Positions 4,510 to 41,100 of a DNA stretch of 50,252 nt are shown piece after piece. Both the position numbers and the translations under genes were made by a program. Positions within the stretch are counted from its first letter, which is position 1, and every line of letters begins with the position of its first letter. Source of the DNA: Gonapodya prolifera JEL478. Taxonomy: Eukaryota; Monoblepharomycota; Monoblepharidomycetes; Monoblepharidales; Gonapodyaceae. A model generated the notes under the pieces. The model saw nothing but the letters and a program-made list of their open reading frames with translations. It searched no databases and was not told the origin of the DNA. The stretch lies in contig KQ965863.1 in NCBI GenBank assembly GCA_001574975.1, forward strand, positions 68,111 to 118,362, written 5' to 3'.

Positions 4510-5936
4510 TCAAACCATCTGCTTTGATCTTGCCACTTCTGTTCTTTGGTCCTCTGTGTCATTCCATACGTGGTACCCTCCAGCTAAGGCGCATTTCAAG
4601 GTGATTAATGGGTCTGGGGCAAAATGAGTAACACTCAAGCGTTCTGACCGAGTTTTTTTGAGATAGAGAAGTCGGAACACATCTGTTGACCAGAAGTTCT
4701 CACCGAGAATAGTGATGGCAACAGATGTACACATTTCCAGGAGCCTAAACAGTGCAAATACTGTGGGAGCGCTTTGATCAACATCCATAGCATGCTGGTC
4801 CAAATCTTTCTCTGAACAACTGGTCAGATCTGAGAAGCGCACTGCATATTCCCCAGAATACCAGATTTCGATGAGTCGCAACTGAGGGAAAGCACCATCG
4901 CAGATAGCTTTAGTAAGGGCTTCAACGGAGTCTATGGAAATCCCATGAGCATATCCAAAACCGAGTGCCTCAATGTTTTGATGTCCGCATTGTGTGGCTT
5001 GTGCACAAAACTCCGCCAAGTCCGCTCCATCATTTGATCCTTCATATTCACGTACATTCGGAAACAAGTGAAGCACTTCCATGGGTGCGTCGTGGAGACT
5101 GACGAATGGGGCCCGAAGAAGCTTTAAAACATGTGACTGATCATTTTTGGATTTAGCGATGACAGCAGACATGGATCTCCATTTCGTGAAAGATTACCCG
5201 ACATTTACCTTCTTCAATAAGTATTCTTTAAAAGGCTTCCGGATTTGATTCATATCAATGTCATCAAACACGAATTCAACCATATCCAAAATGTTCGCCA
5301 ATTCGATGGTCCAAGACATCGGAAGTTGGCCCGCAACAAATGTAAGACGGTGGAACTTCACATCACAAAATGGTAGCGCATAATGTAGGGCCGCTCGGAT
5401 CGATGTCACGACTTCTTCTGGGGATGTGTCGTCCAGACCCTCTCTGTTGAGTTCAAGTTGACTTCTGAGGCAAAACGAACTCCAAGACGCCTCGGCCGGG
5501 GTTTCCAGAGAAACCCTTAAGATTTTCTTTCGTAATTCGGATGCTTTGGCGATTTGATTGTCCCGATTCAGGTCGCTTTCCTCCCCAAAAAGTCTCAATG
5601 CACCAATCGTTTCGAGAAGAGGGTTCCAATGAATCGAGATAGAAACACAAACAGTAGAGGCTTCAGATTTGTGTGAGTATGCGAATCGGGAAGAGCGGTG
5701 TATCATATCATCGAACCTTTAACGATGGTGGACTGCAATGCCCGAAATCGTCGGCAGACCAGCGGAATGTGGGTATAGAAAGCCTTTCGGTTCGCGAGGA
5801 GAACGAGGACGCGGAGTGCGATTTCGTCTGGGAGCTCATCCATTGGGTTTCGACTCTTCGGCAGTCCCAGTGTCCCCTCGAAGATGTTGAAACAGAATTT
5901 CAGCCGTGACCTAATCCTGAGAAGCATCAATGGCAA
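4510..5936 (-). CDS. F-box protein
   Basis: Three exons (5936-5717, 5660-5209, 5136-4510) join in frame to 432 residues. The introns are 56 nt (donor GTTCGA, acceptor CTGAAG) and 72 nt (GTAAAT to GATCAG). Residues about 30-70 form an F-box (NPMDELPDEIALRVLVLLA followed by VCRRFRAL), the Skp1-binding module of SCF ubiquitin ligases. The remainder has leucine-rich, repeat-like spacing (for example VLHLFPNVREYE and FPQLRLIEIWYSGEY) and would be the substrate-recognition part. The start could instead be the internal Met just before DELPDEI. The substrate is unknown. Expected site of action is cytosol or nucleus with Skp1 and cullin. Confidence 0.8.
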
Positions 5937-6202
5937 CCAAATAATTTCGCACTGGTAGTCCTAGATGGGACCATAAACATTAATGTCCAATTGATTTCAT
6001 TACAGCAGGTGCCAGTTGGTTGCGCCCCCACGGAATGCACGTCTGATATACACAAAAAATATCCACGCGATAAATCACTTTGTCTTTACGTAGGTCGTAG
6101 ATCGAGAGTATACACAAGACACATCTACAGCGTACGTCCCATCGTTCAATCACAATGCCCTCCTGGTGCCTTCCCTCCACCCACCCGTCCGCTCTGCTCA
6201 CA

Positions 6203-9200
6203 TCACGACTGATTCGCATACTGATTCTGCATCGACCGGTACGCCATATCCCGCATCATCTGCTCCCGAATGTCCATCTCCGTCACCGGCCGCTCCATGC
6301 CGTATGCCCGCTCGGGGCTGTGCACCTCCCGCATCTCCATCTGGGGCGACGTTGACGTCGCCGCGTACCCGCCCTCTGCCTGCGCGTGCCAGACCCCAGA
6401 CTGCCGCCTCGAACGGTGAGAGGGATTTCGCGAGGGCGTGCGTGTGCTTGCCTGGGGATGACTGTACGCGTACTCCTGCCCACCGGGGGGCGACGTGTTC
6501 CTGTTCCTGGTCGCCGCCGCCTCGGCCTGAGCGGCATCCTCCTGCTCTTGTCGCTGCTGAACGACGGACCGGCGCGACTGGCTCTGGCGCGATCGTGAAC
6601 GTTTCTGCTCCCGCCGGAGCCACATGTCGAGCTGGGCCTCTTCGGGCGACATCGGCCCCGCTGCTGCTGCTGCGGCGGCGGCGGCTTGCTGATACTGCCA
6701 CTCGGCGGTGCGTTGCTCGGGAGATGCGGGCGAGAAGACCCCCCGACCCTGTGACGCCATTTCCGGGGATGTGACGCCCCGACCGCGCACGGCCGACTCG
6801 CTCTCCCGTCTTCGTGGCGCTTCGAACCTGTTCGACCGCACGAGAGAGGCTTGGTCCGACGTCTCGCTCGCGATCGCGTGGAGCGACTGCGGTACCGATT
6901 GGGTTGAGCGTGGGATGGAGCCTCCCGTGTTTGTGCTCTGCTGACGGATGAGACGTTCGGATAGCACCCGGGTAGTTGTGTTGGGAGTGGCGGATTCGAT
7001 CCGGGGGAGTGGGTTGGACGGTGGCAAGTCGTGAGTTTCGGAGACGAGGTTGGGGAAGCGGATGCAGTCGCTGTAGTGCACGAGCACAGTGGGTGGCGGG
7101 GAACGATCATGAGTGAGAGTTTGCGGGGACGGCACGTGCTTGGAGAATCTAGTACGAGCACGAGCACTCACAGAGGCGCGATCCCGACCTGGTCTGTCTC
7201 CATGCAGTGCACGAGACACCAACCGTCTCGGAACATTGTTCGGAGTTCGACGAGCTGGTGAGGTGGGGGTTGTTTGTTAGATCGTGATCCACACATGGCG
7301 AGACAAAAGTGTAAGTACCTGACCAGGGAACAGCTCGATCTCGTCAATCGCAGACGGGTTATGCTAGAGACCCGACGGGCAGCGTGGGGTAACATGAGTG
7401 TGAAACTGAACTCCAAGCTCCAAAACCCAACAAGAACTCGACAGCGTACCTTTTGCGAAACAATCAAAGGCGTGGACCCTCCCGTATGGAACTCAAGGAA
7501 GGCGTCGTCTTTGTCGCCGGCCTTTATGGAGTATATTTGGAAGATTGGATGCGGCTGGGAGGTGGTGGAGGCGGTTTTACATTCAGTCAAGGAGTTATAT
7601 AACAGGGCTAGACCAATCGGAAGACGAACCTTTCCAGTGCGTTCACGGCTGGAGACTACGTGATGCGAATGCAATCGAGCCAATCAGCGATCGTCTTCCC
7701 CGCCAACCAGTTAAGCGCCCCAACTCAAACTCACTCTGCCTCCTCCTCTCTATCCACAACTTCAACTTGGGCGTCCACCCGACACCTCCAATCAGCAGAC
7801 CCAAACACAGCAACAACACGGCAACCGCCGCGATCAAGTACATCCCCACTTTAGGCGCCTGGTCGCTCGGTGTGGATTTGATCTTGGCAATAGACGCGTT
7901 GACGGACGCCGGAAAGGTCAGTTGATCGACCATGTGCGCGACACCGTTGGAAAGGAGGATGGTGCGGACGATGGGGACGGTGCCGAAGAAGAGTGCGGAG
8001 GGAGAACGGGTTGTGGAGAAGGTTTCGTTGGCCAGGAGGGTGGGCAGGCGGGAGGATATGTCGTCGGTGGTGTAGCGGAGGCCCAGTATGACTGATGGGT
8101 GGGTGCCGTGATTTGTGAAGACACGTTCGCAGAAGGGACGGGGATATTGAAATACGACGTACCGTTGTACTGAATCACCTTGAGAAGCACGTTATTCCGT
8201 TCCGTGTCGTCCCCGAACGCGTCGTTGATGATGGCGCGGGCGGCGTCCATGGCGGTGTTGGTGGGCATGAGGCTGGCAAAATAAAGCGGGTTTGAGAAAG
8301 AGCGACATTGAATATTGGTCCACCAAAGGGAGCAAAGCAAGGGAGCAATAGCGCAAGGATAGGAAGGTAGAACTGGAACTCACACGGTGACGGGAACCTG
8401 CGCCTCGATGACGTCCGTAAAGTTGATCGCGCCGACGAATTTCGTGAAGTCAGACAGGGTGTTGGGAGTGATGTTCTTGGCTTGGGGGATCTACAGGGCA
8501 TATTACATGAGGATTTCTAAAGGTTATCTCTCGCAATCGCTCATGCAAAAAGGAATTGGCCTCGCTACGCTCGGAGGGGTCGGTCTTGCGTGCTTCGCAC
8601 TCCAGAGTCCAGACATCACTCAAATACGTACCAGCGGCAATTGCAAACTCGTCAAATTGGTAAGTCCCAGAGTCTGCGACAGTGAGATCGGCGCGAGCAA
8701 GCCCTCGCTCACGAGATGCAGAATTCCATCGTCGCAAGGAAAGGTCCCTACGATTTTGGACTCCCACCAGGTGGCCAATCCGAAGACGAGCGAGTTGTCC
8801 TGTTTTGTCACACGGATCACCTGTGGTGTGATTTGGCTGGCGTTTGTGGGACCGTTTGCGGTGAGACGAGTGGGCAGGTAGAACACGTCCGGTTTGGACG
8901 CGAGGTAGTTGGCGTCGAGGATGATGTCGGAAGTATGGTATCGGCCAAACTCTTCCAACAGGGGCGAAAACGCCGCGATTGAGATGACGCCAAAGATCTT
9001 GTTGAACGCGTCGTCTGTTGGTGCGAAGAATGTCTTTTTTGTCGCGTTTGAATTGACGTATTTCACGATATCGAGACCGCCAAAGATTCCATTCGGGTCG
9101 AGTGCCTGCAGCGCGACGCTGAGCGGGTACGTGCCCTTGAGCGAGGAGATTGTCTGAACGATTCCAGCGGAGTGCGCGGGCGGAGTGTGGCAAAGTGCGA

Positions 9201-9237
9201 CGAGCGCCGCGATGATTGCGATGGCGAGAGCACGCAT
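6203..9237 (-). CDS. Fasciclin (FAS1 x2) - transmembrane - SH3 protein
   Basis: I join eight exons: 9237-8632, 8490-8384, 8272-8163, 8091-7660, 7607-7450, 7363-7319, 7254-7172 and 7070-6203. All splice phases agree and give 802 residues. The start at 9237 opens a signal peptide (MRALAIAIIAALVALCHT). Two FAS1 domains follow, with motifs such as TFFAPTDDAF and HLVSEGLL in the first, and VLMPTNTAMDA, VILGLRY and NGVAHMVDQ in the second. A single span (YLIAAVAVLLLCLGLLIGG) and a basic stop-transfer segment come next. An SH3 domain is split over exons 5-8 (HNPSAIDEIELFPGQ, then LVELRTMFRDGWCLV, ending GIAPLDCI). The last about 280 residues are disordered and charged with a poly-Ala run. FAS1 domains mediate cell adhesion; SH3 binds proline-rich partners. 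I infer a plasma-membrane adhesion sensor. The weakest join is the 52-nt intron 7659-7608. Confidence 0.8.
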
Positions 9238-10119: not shown

Positions 10120-10929
10120 CTAGATCGTGCCTTGTTGAACACGGTGCTCATCGCGTCCTGTCGAAAACCCTTCATGGCGACCGCACATGAGTGCTCCGCA
10201 GTCAACACATGTCGTGCATCCGTTTCTTTCATCCACACAAGAAGCACAAAAAAAAAAAAAAAAAAAATCAGTGCACTCTGGCTCCCAACATAAGCGATTC
10301 TTTTCCCTGCGCTTTCCCTTGATCACAGGCAACGACCTCATCACCACATTGCTCACAAATGGTGGGGGTTATATTCTGCAATCGCGGGAACATTGTCTGG
10401 AGTGATCGCAGAGCCGACACCGACTCAGACTGAATCCAGCTTCCAAGCGTCCCTGTGAGATCAAGACAGCGCAAGGGAGAGTCTATATTCCAGCTGTCTC
10501 TTTCCGCCGCTTCCAAAACCAGGTCCGCGTACCCTGTCAAATCCACCTTGTACAACCCCGGAACGAGTGCCTCTCCGCCAAAGGCAGCTGCAGCGCAGCC
10601 ACCAACGTCCAAGTCGAAACAGCCGTCCCGCCAAATCTCACCTCCACGACCCCCGTTGCGGTGTGGCCCCTTGCTTTTGCGACCGAACGTCCGAGTGTGG
10701 GTGCAATCCACCTGGCAATCTGCGCCAGGGACGCTGCGTACTGCGCGTCGCGGAAATTCGGGGCCAGGTCGGAATAGTCCAGACGCTCCCAGACGGATGG
10801 GATGTGGACTATTCGGCGATTGGTGGTGGAGGTGGAGGAGAGGTGGACGATGGCGCCCACGGGGAGGAACAAGCAGATGACTTTGAGAGCCTCGAGGGGA
10901 ACCGCGGAGAGCGAGGCGGTGGGATTCAT
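10120..10929 (-). pseudogene. F-box protein with Cys-rich C-terminus, frame broken
   Basis: From ATG 10929 an F-box-like N-terminus is readable (VPLEALKVICLFLPVGAIVH, then PSVWERLDYSD). Leucine-rich text continues in a different frame (LYKVDLTGYADLVLEAAERD, RCLDLTGTLGSW). A Cys/His cluster with zinc-binding spacing spans two frames (CEQCGDEVVAC, then LCWEPEC, CASCVDERNGCTTCVDCG, MCGRH). An intron at the donor GTGGAG|GTGAGA with acceptor CTGCAG looks good but does not restore the frame. The 20-base A/T run at 10248-10267 lies inside the Cys cluster. Either indels or slippage errors broke the gene, or I have missed introns. If intact it would be an SCF substrate adaptor. Confidence 0.5.
10248..10267. 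repeat. A20 homopolymer
   Basis: Twenty consecutive A on the plus strand (T on the coding minus strand) lie between the two halves of the Cys-rich region of the F-box locus. It is prone to slippage in replication and sequencing, so the frame across it is uncertain. Confidence 0.9.
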
Positions 10930-11463: not shown

Positions 11464-11939
11464 AAATCCATGAGAACGGGGAATAAGAAGCAATCCACGG
11501 TGGAAGCAACTCACCAAGGCGCGACACGTCTCCGGCAGTTTACATGAACTCCACCTTCCCCTGTCTGGCGAAAAGTCCTCCCACACTCCATCAGCGTACT
11601 CATTCTTGTGAAAGTCCCGTTGACCACGGAGTTTGGCGGCGATTCCCGCTGAGGGCGGCCGAGAGGTACGCGGAGGTGTTCATTCTGACTTTTTGAGGGC
11701 TCGCGACAAAGCAGACGGGTACGAGAGGGATATGTAACAACAAGGCGGAGTTGTGGGCTGCCACGCAAGCCACTGACCACAACTGTACCGTCTGCCGATC
11801 CTATATAGAGAGATACATAAATACAATCGACGGTACAGTACATTGGTATGGCATTGGGAGAAGTATTTACATATTATTTGGGGAGAAGTCTCAGTGTACC
11901 GTACTATACTTTGAATGTACTGTACTACATGGCCCAAGA
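11464..11939. other. Non-coding block interrupting the ankyrin locus
   Basis: About 480 nt separate the two ankyrin parts and contain no ankyrin or other recognisable coding text. The block ends in a GTAC-rich segment with an inverted repeat (separate entry). It could be an insertion or an enlarged intron of a once longer gene. Confidence 0.45.
11833..11925. repeat. 12-bp inverted repeat, GTAC-rich
   Basis: GTACAGTACATT at 11833-11844 recurs as its exact reverse complement AATGTACTGTAC at 11914-11925. Further GTAC-containing sequence (GTGTACCGTACTATAC) lies between. It sits at the edge of the block that interrupts the ankyrin repeats. Confidence 0.75.
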
Positions 11940-13138
11940 GCCGGTATTCAATGGATACGCTGATATTATTTCCCTTCTGTTAGACCGGGGAACTGAGGAT
12001 CACTACTGGGCATACGACGCCATCCAGCACAATCAAGCAGCTGTTCTGAAACTTCTTGTCGAGCACGCCATGAGGTCAGAGGACCCAAAATTCAATAGCG
12101 TAAAGTCCTGCCTGTTTGATACATCCCGAAACCGCTGTGACGACGCTCCTTCCACACTTTTGGATATCAACGTCGATGACGTGAACATTAGGGATAGCGT
12201 GAACGAGTGTGAGAGGACACTTTTGATGAAGGCATTGTATGGGCGGTATCATTCTCCCCAGGTGTCTCGTCGCGACGCACTCCCTACAGCAAAATGCCTT
12301 TTGTCGCGGGGTGCGGACGGGTATTTGATGGATAGCGAGGGCCAAACGACATTGATGTACGCTCTTTGTAATGCGGAGATGGATTGTGTTGCTTAAGAGA
12401 CCTGTGGACTGGAAGATCTTGCCGAAAGTGACAAAGTGCCCTTCAAGTTCCTTCTTACGTGTCGCAAAGGCGAATTAGAGGAAGTGAAGGACTTCGTCGA
12501 AACTTGGGGGACAAAGCTGGTCAACATCAACGAAGGTATTCGACAGCCCCACTCCTCTTATGGTTGTACTTGAAGGAGACCATATGGACATCGCCGACTA
12601 CTTGATTCGCTTGGGTGCGGATTTGGATGTCAAACGCAACACCACTGGAGTCCACAGGAAGGACAATGTGATGCTTCGAAGTATTGATCAGAGAAAGTTC
12701 CATCACGTCGAGTACCTCCTGGACAACGGAGCAGCCCCGGACGGTTGGAGTCTGTGCGAGGCGGTCAGGCTCAACGCAGAGGACCTCGCGTGCCTTCTGC
12801 TTGATCGAGGTGCCAGTCCGCACGCAACGGCGGCGGGTAGCTCGCAATCAGCGCTGAAGAGTGCTGTCCAGGAGGATCATGTTCGGCTCGTTGAACAACT
12901 CTTGGAAAACGTACCTGGCGACGCATTGCACGATGCATGCGCCAACTATATCAAGATATCGCGCAGCAAGCGCTTTCCTATCATTCGGATGCTTATCGAT
13001 GCAGGCGCAGATGTGAATTATAGCAGCAGTCGAGGATGGACGCCATTTGCCTTGGCTCGTAGTTTGGGGATGCCAGAAGTAGTCGAATACGTGATTGCCA
13101 GGGGACCGATATCCGAAGAGATCTTTGAGGATGATTGA

Positions 13139-30130: not shown

Positions 30131-33025
30131 TCAGCTCCGCAAATCAGCATCCGGGTCCGAAGCGTCTTCAAACAAGTGGTCATCGTCTTCATCGTCAGGT
30201 ATACCAACGCCACCCAAACTCAAATTCGTCTGCATTCCGCCTTCCCGACTTCTCTCCCACTGCATCTGCTCCACGCACTTCCTGCGGCCTTCGGCAATGG
30301 CTACCTCGATGGCCATCCGGTTCGCAATCATGTGGACTTTTGACCACGTTTGTCGCTCGCCTCCCTTCATGTAGTGCATCAGGCGACGAGGGTCGGGGTC
30401 GGTGAGGATATGGGTGTCTGAAAGACAAACAGTTTGGGTTAGTTGATGGCGACCGGAGTGGCTGGACAAAGAATAGAGGAGCTCACAATCATCGAAGGTG
30501 ACCTTCGGCACGATGGTTACAGATCCCTCAAAGTTTTGAAGAAAAATGAACGAGGGATCGTGTCCCACCACTGCGATCAGAGAATCACGATTAGTACTTG
30601 TAACTGATCGACCAATATCTGCAAGTCGTCCCAAAAGTCTCACCTCGCGGGAGGAGGGACATTTCTCGTACCACCTGCAAGTATTTGATGATGTCGAGTT
30701 TCAGCCATTGTTCCATTATGGAAAGGACGAAGCCACCACGCCTAAAAGACAACATTGTTCGATTAAGTCTGGCCCAGAGTGATGAGGGCAAAGAAAAGTA
30801 ACATCTCACCATCCCTTTCCTCGCCGATGGGACGTTGGTCTTCCGGGAGACCCTCGCCTGTTATAGAACCAAACCGCGACATGAGGATTGACCTGGGCGA
30901 AAAATTATCTCATCATCACGTCGGTCGTTCAAGCAGCTTTCCCACTCGACTAACCTGACTGACGATCGTGAAGTTCACGTTATAAAGCCTGTAGAGGGAT
31001 TGCTCCGGGATGTCCACCCTCAGCGACCCATCTCGCCACCGTCTTCCACTGCCCCGGAACGGAACCATGTTGCCGTGCTCGTCCTTTCGCATAAGCTCCA
31101 CTGGGTGGAGAACAAAAGGTACAGCGGACGATGCAAGAACCGCGCTCCAAATCACCACGTCTGGAGCGGTCAGCTGCGGTGAGAGCCATACGTCGGTGAC
31201 TTGCTTTAGTAATTGGGATACAAACTGCAGCAAAGCAGCTCTCACATAGTTCAGTACTTTCGGCGGGGCATTTGGTTCCTCGGGAATGACCGAGATATTG
31301 AGTACTCTGCCAGTTTTGCGATAGGCCTCCAAAAAGGTCATATCACCAAATGTCACTTCTTTGGTTCTGTGTTCGAGAACGCCCGAGTGAGTGTATGTGG
31401 GTCGCTACCTTCAACCAACGTTTCATTGCTCACCCTTCAATCCATTTCTTTGTATCAAACATCGCGCCATCTGATGCAAGACGCTGAAGCCGAGTCTATA
31501 CAGGCAATGGGGAAGGAACCTGTTGATGCACCTTAGCTGCAAAGATCGTACATCGGGACGTACCATCCAAGACTCCTGACACGCGACGAGTTTCTTCGAC
31601 AAGTCCGGCACCAGTATCTCTCTCCTCAGTTCGTCGTCTGTCCGGACACAAACCATGGCGGCGATGAGAGATCCAGCCGAAGTACCAGTGAACACCGACG
31701 GAAGAAGTGACGACGTCTTTCTGTCCTTAGATGTTGGAAAGTGTAACGACGCTTGAGGATAGCTATGGTGGGTTTCAGCGTCGGAGGCGCTTTCCACGTC
31801 TGTGCTTCGTTCGCGACTGTGAATTCCACTGCTCGGGACATGAGTCAGTGGAATGGTGTTGTCAGAAAACGCCTCGTCCATGTCGACGTCAAGGAGCGCC
31901 CTGAGAACGCCGAGATGATAGTATCCGAAAGATGCACCGCCCGATAAACACAAAGCGGACCGTCCATATTCGCGAGCCGCATTTTTGAAGAATGCTCGTT
32001 TGTCGTCCAGTTGAATATCATGGCTCTCTGAAATGTGCTGGAGGGAAAGGACGACTGGAGAGCAAGATGGCTTTGTTCAGTTCAATCATAGTCCGCCAAG
32101 TGACATCAACGCTCACCTTCCCGCACGTACTCCTCCACCAAATTGTTTGTTCCCCAGTAGGCTTTGCTGTAAAGAATTGGGCTTTCTATTCCGCCAACGT
32201 TCGGCTTCACGCCTGTGTGAAGAAGTACGTCCATCAGACGATTGGCCGATTCGCAATCGGAATGCTTTGTGTGATGGATTCTGAGCTGTCGTAAGCGTGT
32301 CAATGTTCGGTTCAAAAGATCATTGTCACTGTCGGTGAAGACAGTTAAAGTTTTGGTCACGGTGTCGTTGGCTAAAGCAGTATCGTGCACTCACAAGTCA
32401 CCAACCCCAGACGCCACGTTCGATTTCTTCCATTTGCTGTTTCCGAGATACTGATCCAAGATTTTCGCGTTTCTTTTCCAGTCGTGGTACGTTTTGCTCA
32501 ACCCAAGCCTCTTCCTCAAAATGGCGGCTTTTCCGCTCCAGACGTAAATGTACTCGTAGAGAACAACAACTTGGCGAACCAAGACATAGAGGAGAATGTC
32601 TATGGACATCGCTATAGTGATGAAAACCTTCATCCGATGGTCTGTTGTCAACAGTACTTCACAAAGTGACCTTTTGCTGTTGTAGAGCTCACAAGAATGG
32701 GTCCTCTCAAAAACCACGAGCTAACACTCTCCCGAGAGTTCCGATCGAAACTGAGGAATGCCCAGGACTTCAAAAAGTCGTCTTCCTCGTCCGCAAATGA
32801 GGAGCTGAGTCGAACTCCAGCAGGGAATGGAGCTGCAGAAGCGATGATGGGTTGTCCTTCGCGTCCATCACTCCTTGATGAGGCTGTTTCGGTAGAAAGG
32901 GGCTTGAGAGGGGCCACTCGAAGTCGTGTTCGCTTTCGTTTGATTGATACGAATTCGTCGGCAGTTGTATCCCCCGGATCCAGATCCGGATTCACGGTTA
33001 TCGCTCCAAACTTTGTCGAAGCCAT
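30131..33025 (-). CDS. Patatin-like triacylglycerol lipase (Tgl3/4/5, SDP1 type)
   Basis: A multi-exon gene from ATG 33025 (MASTKFGAITVNPDLD) to a stop at 30131. After a disordered N-terminus comes a hydrophobic and basic region (DILLYVLVRQVVVLYEYIYV, WSGKAAILRKRLG) typical of this family. The patatin domain holds the oxyanion glycine motif (LSGGASFGYYHLGV), the nucleophile elbow GTSAG and the catalytic Asp in WRDGS, so the Ser-Asp dyad is intact. Further conserved text: MTFLEAYRKTGRVLNISVIP and LFLQNFEGSVTIVPKV in the C-terminal part. A Ser-rich insert of about 70 residues sits between the oxyanion motif and GTSAG. Relatives hydrolyse triacylglycerol on lipid droplets. The acidic tail ends DDHLFEDASDPDADL. 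Exon junctions were placed by eye; about eight exons. Confidence 0.85.
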
Positions 33026-33281: not shown

Positions 33282-36200
33282 TCATACCCCAGCGACCATT
33301 CCTGCATCCAAACCCAGAGCTCGAAGGAACAGATTGACGTCCGATAGCATCCTCTCTCTGATGGCAGCATCACCCCCTGATTCGATGTCTGCTTTGCGAA
33401 TCGCTTCGAGTACACGCTCTCTGTCGAGAAAGAATCGATCAGTTATAAAAGATTAGAATGAAATTTCGACTGTTCACTTACCGAACCTCCATGACAAGAA
33501 CTCTTTGGTAGTCCACGCTTGATGCACTCACAGCTAAAGCGGCCAAGAACTGCCACACATAGCTGTCCTCGGATGCAACCCCAGCTACAGAGCTGTCAGG
33601 GAACAACACTGATAAGTCGTTGTGTATCGACATAAATAAGGCGTTGTAGAGCTCCGACCTGTCACCGGGAAAAGGATTAACAGGACGGTAACAGGACTTG
33701 GGTTAGGACTTGGTGGATGATTATACTCACCACAATTGCAGCTCAGACTCTTGAATATCTCCCACAGCTTTTACCACTTCGGCCCTGCTCAAAAGTACTG
33801 TGAGGACAGCCAATCCAACTTTGCTTTTAGCAATAGCTGAGAGTCCCTCATCGCCGCCACCTTTCTCAAGTAGGATACGCATCAGAGCGATGACAAGGTG
33901 AAAGGGTAGGTCCGAAACAAATGTCACGAATCCTGGAACAAAAGATGCGAGAAACAGGTCGACCGTTCGGGCGTACGATTCACTTGCAGAATCACCGGGA
34001 GAAGGGCGGACAACATCAAGTTGAGAAAGTTTCGACATTATATACGCAACCAAAAACAGAGCAAAATCAACGTTGAGATGTCGGAAGAGTCGTGGAAGCA
34101 GCCGTTTACCCTTGTCCATCCCAAGGGCATCCAAAAACGTAACGTTACCACTGCCGTGTGCACCTGCTATTTCATCTTGAATTCGCAATCGCTCCCATAG
34201 GTTGTCGGCAAGACGGTCGGTCTGGATGGACCACTCTGCCTCATCAGCCGGATCTTCCTCTGTCCCAACCTGCCTCTTTCTGACATCGAGTTCAATCAGC
34301 AAGTCGTAGGCATCTTCAATGTATCTGAGAACTGTCGCACGTAGTGGCTTCTGGATACCGTCATGAGGTTCTGGCATAGTCGACTGAAATTGGATTGTTG
34401 AAACAGTTTTCGTTTCAAACGTTTCAAGGAAACCAAAGTACACCCACCCTCAAATCTCCTTGCTTTATTTTGGCGTCTACAGTGAGAAGGTGTCTCGGGT
34501 TCTTGAAGGTACTGGATGAAATTTTGCCAAGGGCGCCCTCCATTGAGACTTCAGCAACTGTGAGCCAATCGACATTTCGTGAACGAGAAAGTGGACTTAC
34601 AGTCTGTTCCCTTCTCTTTCCGCAGACCTTCTTTTTCCTTCCTCTTCCTTTCTGCCAACCATCTACTCGCTTGCTCTTGCATTTTACTCAGGTCTAGGTG
34701 AAACTTCGGCTTCTCAGTCCGCCCTTTTCCCCGGCCGCCTGATCGTGCAATGAGCATCGCCTGCTGCCAAGTCATTTCTGTTCCCTTTGTCGTTTCACTG
34801 GGTGTTTCTGTCTGGGTTACTTGTGACGAGGGACCTCCAAACATCGCGTAGTAGAAGTCATCATCGTAAGGACGGTCCGTCATAAGCTGAGATACCTGAA
34901 CTCTAGCCAAATGAGCCTTTTCGTGGTTCGTCATAAGCCCATTGTACGCTTCCTATAAGAAAATGTTGGTAAAGCCCAGTTTAAAATGAATGAACCGAAC
35001 AAATCAAGATTCACATACCCTTCGGGCATTCCGAAAGTATGCGTCACGCTCAGCGGCATTGGCAAATTTTGGCTCTCTTGGAGGAGCTGGACGTCCGAAG
35101 GAATGTTCGTGTTGATGAAAGTCCCGAGCATATCCACCATAAGATCCACGGCCTGGGCCACCTCGACCATAGCCTGGTCCAGTATTGCTATGATAGCCAT
35201 GAGGGGACTGCTCTCGGGGATGTCCCTGGTTCCCCTCAAATCTACCACCACGACCTCCCCCTCCAAACCCGTAAATGAACTTTTGGGGAGGACCTGTATC
35301 ATTGCTGTAATTTGCTCCATTATGACGGATCCCATGGCTCGTTGGTGCACTTGAACTGACTTTCTCGCGCGGTTGTACCGCAGTTGCCGAGGCGAGGGAT
35401 GGAAATGACTGGTCGTTTCGATCGACCGGGAGCTGCTGAGGTGACAAGTCTCGGCCACCTGGCCTTTGAGCGCGAGGGACACTGTGACTTTCGGGAACGC
35501 TCTGGTTCTCACGAGGATCTTGGTACTCTGGATGTGACACCACTGATGGTTCTGCTTGTGGCAGAACGTTCATCGCGGCCTCCTTCATATGCTGAGCTCT
35601 CATTTGGGCTTCAACTTCCTCCACGCTCAGCATCTTTCGCAGCTGGTTGGGCGGTGACGCTGGCCAGCCTGGTTCTCGAATAGGAGTAATTCCTTCAGTA
35701 ACATGAGGTCCTGCAGTCGCAGTGTATGCCGCCATTGCTCTCTGCAGTTCAATGGAGAAGATTTGATGTTGCACGTGCGGGGGCATACCGGTGACCTGCC
35801 GAGCTACCGTGGCGAGGTGTTCTCGTACAATCGGAGGAAGAAGGTGCGGAGGTGGGAGAGGAGGGAGAGGAACCGATTGAGGTGTGTTCTGGAGTGGCAA
35901 ACCTTGCGGCATCAGGGATGGTTGAACTACGCTGTTCGCAAGGAGCTGAGCCTCCACTTCCGCTACTGACATGGGTTGTGATCGACTTGGCAGGGGAACA
36001 GAATAAAGAGGCACGTTCTGACGGTCCGGTCGCAGCTCATTTCCTCTGGGGTTACTGGGAAATGGACTGTAGGTTGTGCGCTGTTCCTCGTCCATTCGAC
36101 GGGAGAAGTGGGCATTAGCAGCATGGAAGTCGAAGTCTTTCCCTGAAAGTTGACAGAAGGTCAAATACTTATGCCGACATATGTTTGCTGGAGGCCCTCG

Positions 36201-36684
36201 CGAACTGATGGACTTTCATTCTTCCTTATGGAAACTCACCAATTTGTTCCTTGCCCACATCAAACGTCTCCTGGTTGAGGCCTTGGTTGTCTGGGTCGAT
36301 CAAATTGCCCAATCGAGGTTGTCTCCCCGATTGTGGAAGATGTGGTGCCGACGTCCACTGCTCGTCAATGCCTTGCTGGTTTCCTCTGAAACGTTCGTTT
36401 CCTTCAAACACCGCAGCATCCGCATCGAGCAGCTCTATCTCATCCTGAAGGGCCGTAAGGTCTTCTTCAAGGTCTCCACCGAGCTCTCCATAAAGAGCAT
36501 CTTCCTCGTCCGCATTCCACAACCCCGAGTTGAACTTTTCGAAATCTACTTCCACATCCCCACCGCGGGCCTTTCCCTTCTCCATCGAAAAAGTTTTTGG
36601 TGGTTGAGATTGGTCAAACCCGAAAAAGCCCGGCGATCCCGGTGTTCGGGACAGGGCGAGAGGAACTAACTTGCGATTCGCCAC
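33282..36684 (-). CDS. PAT1: Pat1-type decapping activator and P-body protein
   Basis: The N-terminus has the Pat1 signature FFGFD (residues about 20-24), then an acidic Leu-rich segment. A long Pro/Gln/Gly-rich part follows with short motifs MSVAEVEAQLLAN and LSVEEVEAQMRAQ and an RGG-like Gly/Arg stretch. The mid domain follows (MTNHEKAHLARVQVSQLMTD, DDDFYYAMFGG). The helical C-terminal domain runs from LGKISSSTFKNPRHLLTVDA through GKRLLPRLFRHLNVDFALFL to LFLRALGLDAGMVAGV and the stop at 33282. Pat1 bridges the Lsm1-7 ring and the Dcp1/Dcp2/Dhh1 decapping factors and represses translation in P-bodies. At least five introns split it. The start is given as 36684, but an internal start nearer FFGFD is possible. 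The lipase gene follows 256 nt downstream on the same strand. Confidence 0.9.
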
Positions 36685-38168: not shown

Positions 38169-41100
38169 TTATCGTAAGAGAGATGGCGGCCTCAAGTTTT
38201 CACTCCGCGTTGAATGTTCATCGAGAGAATCTCCCAGAGCCTCGTCGGACTTTCCCGGCACGAGCTTCTTTTTCGAGCCCAGTTTCGGAAGCACCGCTTT
38301 CAGCTTTCCCAGTCTGGAACGGGATCCTGTTGCTGTAATGGGGCTGTCCAATCCTGATAGTACTGCTGGGAGGGCATTCGGAACATAGCCTCGCGTTGTA
38401 CTGCTCGTGCCTGTTGTTGAAGCTACGTTGTGCGATTTCGAAAGATTATCAGTCGACTCCACGATAGAGGAGCTAGATCCCATGCCTTCCAGATCCGAAG
38501 AAATCATTTTAAATATTTTCAACATCGACGGATTCATGTGCACTTACCGTTGGAAAGAGCATCAAAACTGGTACTCACGGGACTTTTCAGAGAGAGTTTA
38601 AAATCGTCTTGAAAGGCATTGCTAACCAGTGTCATTGGGCTTGGAAGACTCGGAGGTCGCTCCCCAGCTGGTCTTTTCCGGGAGCTCACCACTCGTTTCA
38701 GACCGGGCACGACAAACTCTTCAGCGAAACTTGGTTTTCGACTTGTTTGACCTTCGCTGACTGTGTGAATGGAGCTTTGGGATCCCTTAAATGTTGCACC
38801 TTCTGTTCCAAGCGTTGTCGGTTGCGAAGTTGGGTCACTGTCCGTCCCTCGTGGCCAAGGGCTGTGTGGTGTTGACGAATGATTACCACTTCTAGACGAG
38901 AACCGCCTGAATAAGTTCGCATTCAATGAAGGACGCTTGTCGTGGCCCCCGGTATTCTTGCGGGATGGAGTGCCGGGATTGGAATCTGCTTCATTGAAAC
39001 CCTCGTCATCCGACTTTTTAACGTCAGGGTCCTTCTTTGCCTTTCCTTTGCCAGAAGTCGAAGATCCGGAACCTGTGCTGACATTGTTCTTTTTCATTCG
39101 CGGTGCAGTCCACGAGTGACCAAGATCGTCCGCGCACGCTAACAATTCTGTCGAAATCGAGTCGAAGAGCTGCTTTCTAGTACGTTCGTGGATGCGAGTG
39201 AATTTCTCTGATTTGTAAGCTGCATGCTCGCCGTTGATCGCTTTGCAAAGTAAAAATTCCCGCATCTGTCCCAAATCAGAGAATGTCAACTGCTCGGATG
39301 CAAATCCGCCAGGACTGAGAAGGTTCCCGGAAGATTGTGGCGCCCTTGCGGGAGGAGTCTTCGGGCCAAACTGCTTAACTGCTTTGTTGTAGAAGGTAGT
39401 TACTCGATAGCCATTAACTGCAACGTTATGATCTTCCGAGCCCGAGTCAGTTCCAGAAACGCACGGAACTGGTTGCACAACTATGAATATGTGAAGGAAG
39501 TTACTCTTAACGGACACGGGGCTGAAATCGATTGTGGGGCTTTCTTGGTACACGAAGCTCACGATGTCTTCAGAAATTGGTAAATGAGCGAGAAAGCTTC
39601 AGTAGAATTCGAACTGAAGTACTAACCGTTCCCGATATGTCTTTTACGCTGGATCTGCTGTGGATCCTCGGGTCGAAAAGGTAGAAAAGTGGACACATGG
39701 AATGTAGCTTCGAATTCACGCCACTGCAAAGATCAAAAGCGGAATGAGCAAGCTGTCCATACAAAGTGAGCGACTATGTTGGGGCAGACCTTCGTATTTA
39801 GGCAAAACTCTCCAGTTTGTCCATGGGTAACATCCAACCCCGCCCGAAACCCACTAAATCCTTGAAGCGGGTACTTTGTTCCCAAAACAGACAAGAAGTT
39901 CTCGAAACCTCTGCTGCCCTCCACTAATATCACAAAGAGGTTATATAAACATCTTTGTTGGAGCGCATTAATCCCCAAGTAGAACGTACCATTGGCATAG
40001 AGTTCCTCCTCGGTTCTTTGCCCTCTTTATTTATCGTATGAGAGTTCAGTTTCTCTGGCTGTAAGCTAGTATTGCACGTACTGTTTTGCGTAAAGTACTC
40101 CAAACTTGTATCGTGTGATGAAATTGATCTCGTCAAGGCTTTGGATTGAACGCTCAATGTCCGCCCCGGGGTTGCTAATTTTCGTAAGCTTGCACCCATT
40201 TAGATCAGGAGAAAACATTCGAATCGCTATGTCGCGAAGAGCGGGGCGACGTGGCTGGCGCTTGAACATCGTGCCACTGGTGGATGAGGCAGGGAGTTCA
40301 ATTGTGTGACCAGGAAGTGCTACACGACGATCTGGTCGCTTGAAAACAAAATTTCAAGCAACCGGACGTAATTGACGTGAGCAAAATTCCTACATCTTTG
40401 CATCGGAGGATACCTCTGAAGACTCGGCCTCCTAGATCACTTTGGGCGGGGTTGTTACCGGCAGATATTTCCATGCCGATAGCTGTAGCAAGATCTATGG
40501 AGTCTGTCGATCCGATTCCACTTGGATAAATACCCGAATCCCGGCTTAGACCTTGTGAGTGTCCTTCTTTGTCGGCTGTGAGGGGACCCTCTTCTACTAT
40601 GGAGATGATCACGCTCCCCAGTGACGATGATGTTGCCACAAAGAGCTTATGATCTGTCATTGGTGACTTATGAAGTGTATTTTGCTAACAAAGCAGGCAG
40701 GCAAAACATACCTCGACCAACGAAGAACGAATTGAACCATCCAGCGCCGTAATCAAAATTATCAAGAACGAAACTGCGATAATCTTCTTTTAGCCTTGGA
40801 CTCGTGGTGAAAACAGGCGAAGGAGGGCAGATGGAAGGGTCAGCTAAGCTGGGTTCAATAACCCATTCTACAGGTGCTTTACGTTCTTGTGAAGCCTTTG
40901 GTTAAGACGAATGTTTCAAGATCTGGAACAATTGCGATTATTGTCAATTTCTCATCACAAACCTCTGGAGACATAAACTCCGAAATGGCATTTTTGAGCA
41001 CCTCCTGCGCTCTGACAAACTATGCCGTATACACAAAAGACCCGGTGAATTTCTGTTCTCACGTTTGAACCCAGAGAGTACTCACAACTTCATTCATCCC

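Follow-up and report, generated by a model that had tools for sequence, protein, structure and literature searches.

A predicted Gonapodya prolifera gene joining two fasciclin domains, a single membrane span and an SH3-like domain

The analyzed window was a stretch of 50,252 nucleotides from Gonapodya prolifera JEL478 (contig KQ965863.1, positions 68,111 to 118,362), and all positions given here are those of the window. On its minus strand, a splice-joined gene model was obtained that runs from an ATG at 9237, the earliest ATG of its open frame, to a stop at 6203 and encodes 768 residues in nine exons (Table 1). A sequence-only reading of the same DNA had proposed this gene with a signal peptide, two fasciclin (FAS1) domains, a membrane span, an SH3 domain and a disordered tail; its coordinates, strand and domain order were retained, whereas its eight exons became nine. 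The eight introns of the model measured 64 to 141 nt, each with GT...AG ends, and the weakest donor was GTTCGT at 7629. This donor opens intron 5 (7629-7555, 75 nt), which is free of stops in frame if retained, and its retention would restore the count of eight exons, adding 25 residues and leaving the downstream frame the same.

Table 1. Exons of the predicted gene, with the protein segments assigned to them
Feature	Position (strand)	Content	Basis or remark
Exon 1	8632..9237 (-)	Hydrophobic N-terminus (signal-peptide-like) and first FAS1 stretch, residues about 57-178	Pfam, 19.1 bits against a cut-off of 22
Exon 2	8384..8490 (-)	Second FAS1 begins	Pfam and model
Exon 3	8163..8272 (-)	Second FAS1, motif MPTNTAM	Pfam and model
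Exon 4	7735..8091 (-)	Second FAS1 ends (SNGVAHMVDQL); membrane span predicted near residues 356-378, then the basic inner flank KLKLWIERRRQ	
Exon 5	7630..7655 (-)	Micro-exon, 26 nt	Retention of intron 7629-7555 would fuse it to exon 6
Exon 6	7450..7554 (-)	Juxtamembrane stretch and start of the SH3-like domain	Pfam and structure-sequence matches
Exon 7	7319..7363 (-)	SH3-like domain, DEIELFPGQ	Pfam and structure-sequence matches
Exon 8	7172..7254 (-)	SH3-like domain, FRDGW .. GIAPL	Pfam and structure-sequence matches
Exon 9	6203..7070 (-)	Final SH3 residues, then a tail of about 280 residues	Stop at 6203

Since the splice sites were picked by eye, with GT, AG and frame as the criteria, the open frame of 768 codons provides no independent test of the model. 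The reference for codon usage comprised 2322 codons taken from further open frames of the window; some of these frames lack a Pfam match, and the comparison is supportive only. The assigned frame scored better than both others in seven of the nine exons, by a narrow margin in exons 4 and 8, and another frame scored better in exon 5, which offers few codons, and marginally in exon 9.

Other parts of the window also carry recognizable features. On the minus strand, an F-box-like segment at 5706-5960 reached 21.2 bits, below its cut-off of 24.3, and is perhaps the start of the next downstream gene; the frame at 4513-5193 beyond it had no Pfam match. Upstream of the gene, a run of 20 T lies on the minus strand at 10248-10267. 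Ankyrin repeats were found in two open frames of the plus strand at 11821-13135 (Ank_2, 32.4 and 71.7 bits), while the minus strand carries a patatin-like phospholipase at 30919-32076, probably one spliced gene seen in two pieces (42.7 bits, and 26.1 bits against a cut-off of 27.7), PAT1 at 33730-36215, likewise in two pieces (123.2 bits, and 22.6 bits against a cut-off of 25), and a Rap/Ran-GAP domain at 38537-39598 (52.6 bits). Among 20 other open frames chosen from the window, 14 matched a Pfam family with an E value of 0.01 or lower, and all these families are of kinds that occur in eukaryotes. Scanning the window for tRNAs and Rfam families returned nothing.

With the whole protein as query, Pfam Fasciclin matched at an E value of 5.1e-14 (53 bits), and two separate stretches were reported when E values up to 1 were admitted. 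Taken alone, the second stretch reached 41.3 bits against a cut-off of 22 and qualifies as a FAS1 domain, and the first remained below the same cut-off (Table 1). The first retains KKTFFAPTDDAF and DDGILHLVSEGLLAP, and the second VTVLMPTNTAM and SNGVAHMVDQLTFP, pairs that we take to be the two FAS1 motifs. A query of 500 residues against solved structures found periostin at 8.9e-7. Exon 1 alone gave one weak match there (LRC6 by chain name, E 0.049), and its structure model, with a mean pLDDT of 36.6, was uninformative. A recent duplication of one FAS1 stretch into the other was considered and is unsupported, as BLASTP between the two gave an E value of 0.17.

Hydropathy windows of 19 residues reached at least 1.6 only at residues 1-22 and 352-384, the latter peaking at 2.89 and being followed by the basic flank of exon 4. 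Seven of the ten N-glycosylation sequons lie in the part that would be outside, and the hydropathy, the basic flank and the sequons fit a type I topology. In the splice model, this one strong hydrophobic span precedes the SH3-like domain, an order that may correspond to the Fus1p layout of one span followed by a cytosolic SH3 domain. The predicted tail of 279 residues classifies as disordered in a charge-hydropathy comparison (mean 0.372, boundary 0.421) and is rich in Ser, Arg, Ala and Gln, and it contains three of the four PxxP motifs of the protein. A run of nine alanines in it corresponds to a GCC/GCA run at 6659-6685 (-), which is possibly variable in length.

The reading that we favor, at a probability of about one half, is that of one gene encoding a single-pass membrane protein of type I, whose FAS1 pair would lie outside the cell and whose SH3-like domain and tail would form a cytosolic scaffold, by analogy with Fus1p. 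To our knowledge, neither Fus1p nor Sho1 has FAS1 domains, and the stabilins lack an SH3 domain; Fus1p has a single span and, unlike the protein here, a short O-glycosylated outer part. As far as the source texts available to us go, Fus1p is described as a transmembrane SH3 protein that can bind formins via its SH3 domain, and Sho1 as a membrane protein with a cytoplasmic SH3 domain that binds Pbs2, differing from the present protein in its four membrane spans. Stabilin-1 and stabilin-2 are described there as type I FAS1 membrane proteins with cytosolic tails, but with seven FAS1 domains. From the Harpellales, the fasciclin protein FISCoG.g2, compared by its description only, resembles the present protein in having two FAS1 domains in its first 300 residues, followed by about 262 residues of no known function (562 in total), but it is listed as predicted extracellular, and a span or an SH3 domain is not part of the description available; its annotation terms also include vacuole membrane and integral membrane component.

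The main rival to a surface scaffold is a vacuolar-membrane protein of the Fsc1/Ylr001c kind, in which the FAS1 domains would be lumenal and the SH3-bearing tail would recruit cytosolic fusion or autophagy factors. In the available accounts, the fission yeast protein Fsc1, with five FAS1 domains, lies in the vacuole membrane, has a predicted type I topology and is required for autophagosome-vacuole fusion. Proteins organized in the same way occur in many fungal species, and the budding yeast homologue of Fsc1, Ylr001c, is likewise placed on the vacuole membrane. These locations count against the surface placement, which we infer. A vacuolar location is also described for the tandem-FAS1 protein MoFlp1, which has a GPI anchor, however. 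The likeness to Fsc1 lies in fungal FAS1 repeats and a predicted type I membrane protein, but only two FAS1 stretches were found here, which places the protein outside the Fsc1/Ylr001c family if five FAS1 domains together with a membrane span define it, and the present protein has a long predicted cytosolic part with an SH3-like domain, a domain of which the available Fsc1 description makes no mention. We consider a vacuolar role somewhat unlikely. The earlier statement that FAS1 proteins are usually secreted or lipid-anchored was partly right, given that these partial accounts place Fsc1 (by prediction) and the stabilins among type I proteins and Ylr001c on the vacuole membrane.

Some of the splices have independent support from domain matches. 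The second FAS1 match (residues 214-332) spans introns 2 and 3. Exon 4, which holds about half of that domain, had no Pfam match by itself at E up to 1. Since the open frame of exon 2 (8490-8380) follows directly after a stop and has no methionine, a separate start there is unlikely. The SH3 match (residues 436-480 of the whole protein) spans intron 7 well, whereas it takes in introns 6 and 8 only at its edges, with some solved-structure alignments of the SH3 piece starting earlier, within exon 6, and it persists at 21.6 bits if intron 5 is retained. Introns 1, 4 and 5 are spanned by no domain match.

Intron 4, between the membrane exon and the SH3-like part, is where a rival explanation of two genes or isoforms would apply, with a FAS1-membrane form that retains intron 4 and ends at 7643, and an SH3 form that is separate or spliced. 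Its case is that no domain match spans the join, that readthrough from exon 4 adds about 30 residues before it meets a stop at 7645-7643, and that the SH3 frame upstream of exon 6 contains four near-cognate TTG/CTG codons. Against it, this frame is open but has no ATG between the upstream stop at 7686-7684 and exon 6, and the only ATG in 7643-7450, at 7582, lies in a different frame. The sequence-only reading had named an end after the membrane exon with a separate SH3 start as the result that would overturn it; of these two elements the stop exists on readthrough, and the SH3 frame lacks an ATG as far back as its upstream stop. For the join itself, the GTGAGT donor at 7734 was the sole fit to GT[AG][AT]G among 14 GTs, and it joins in frame to either of two acceptors. 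Because 19 of 102 GT-AG pairs in this region also keep the frame, the frame agreement is weak by itself. None of the four kinds of polyadenylation-like hexamers tried was seen in 7734-7450, an absence that is weak evidence because a like search 3' of the gene's stop found only AATGAA and AATCAA. The predicted join of exon 4 to the SH3-like part rests on one consensus donor, the frame and the lack of an in-frame ATG for a separate SH3 gene. An SH3 start in an upstream spliced exon, or isoforms, are possible, but two genes or isoforms seem to us improbable, and one gene very probably carries all the parts. The proposed architecture was supported at the level of a gene model.

The SH3-like domain was scored against SH3 families within the whole protein and as a piece of 98 residues. 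SH3_9, whose cut-off is 30, fell short of it in both cases, at 0.0043 (17.3 bits) for the whole protein and 8.5e-5 (22.8 bits) for the piece, and SH3_1 gave the piece 13.3 bits against a cut-off of 22.9. The Pfam search of the joined protein that the earlier reading had proposed confirmed Fasciclin, while the SH3 match stayed below its cut-off. In a search against solved structures at E up to 10, 16 of the 18 matches of the piece were SH3 by name, from seven distinct proteins, the SH3 identity of some of the 16 being our assumption. The two others were an ovomucoid and a mechanoreceptor channel, and none of the 18 was significant singly, the best having an E value of 0.016. As controls, nine shuffles and one reversal were used (n = 10); none of them matched an SH3 family, and one matched an unrelated family at 0.007. 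Matches near 0.01 are consequently unsafe, and the SH3_9 match at 8.5e-5 is better than this small control set. A chance resemblance within the cytosolic tail, with no true SH3 fold, would suit the sub-cut-off Pfam score, the best structure match, the missing tyrosines described below and the chance control match, but it is highly improbable given the SH3 names among the structure matches, the absence of SH3 from the controls and a match that runs over joined exons, whereas neither the exon-6 frame nor exon 9 gives one by itself in Pfam at E up to 1.

The canonical SH3 groove is formed by the two tyrosines of the ALYDY motif, a Trp, a Pro and the tyrosine of the last motif. Compared with the first motif of vinexin, the two tyrosines are replaced by Gln and His, and compared with the last motif of sorbin (sorbin 1), its tyrosine is replaced by Cys; the Trp and Pro are retained, so that the domain departs from the canonical set. 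Because three of the usual groove tyrosines are replaced, classical PxxP signaling through this SH3-like domain appears doubtful. The inward signaling via SH3 that the first reading had suggested is likewise doubtful, and the role in zoospore encystment that it suggested found no evidence in the window. According to the part of a review available to us, the expression of adhesion genes of Batrachochytrium such as fasciclin is higher in sporangia than in zoospores. This runs counter to the suggested role, although the statement concerns other genes than this one.

The combination was sought in the literature and in sequence collections. Among the matches listed in the open-licence literature, no title or abstract start had FAS1 and SH3 in one protein, and 'sh3' occurred zero times in a fasciclin review. 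One paper containing both search concepts was set aside, as its available text has the FAS1 and SH3 terms in unrelated passages. The order of domains, which the sequence-only reading had not known from a described family, was likewise not found by us in that literature, and its parts are all familiar. Since FAS1 domains (Fsc1) and SH3 domains (Fus1p, Sho1) each occur in known membrane proteins, the FAS1-span-SH3 order seems, within the open-licence literature, to combine known parts in a new way. Relatives were not found in viral and prokaryote contig collections, which are not fungal collections and say little about fungi; pattern scans of these collections matched 0, 24 and 11 stretches, none of which was confirmed.

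Under the favored reading of a surface scaffold, the FAS1 pair would face the cell wall, the matrix or a neighboring cell, and the cytosolic SH3-like domain and tail would hold polarity, actin or MAPK proteins there as a scaffold, as in yeast Fus1p. Because the groove is degraded, the SH3-like domain would be expected to act through a non-PxxP binding surface or as a structural docking module. The wider proposal of a fungal adhesion receptor class, in which tandem FAS1 domains are wired through one span to a non-canonical SH3 domain and a disordered scaffold tail, as an outside-in link that resembles integrins but is built from other parts, is speculative and in our judgment unlikely.

If one transcript has all the parts, the protein would tie a FAS1 adhesion module physically and directly to a cytosolic adaptor, a link unreported in the available descriptions of the fungal FAS1 proteins compared here. 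A vacuolar location would instead point to a site for cytosolic partners in the still unexplained function of Fsc1. With all the parts in one transcript, the gene would also offer a testable handle on how contact with the wall or matrix is relayed in this organism.
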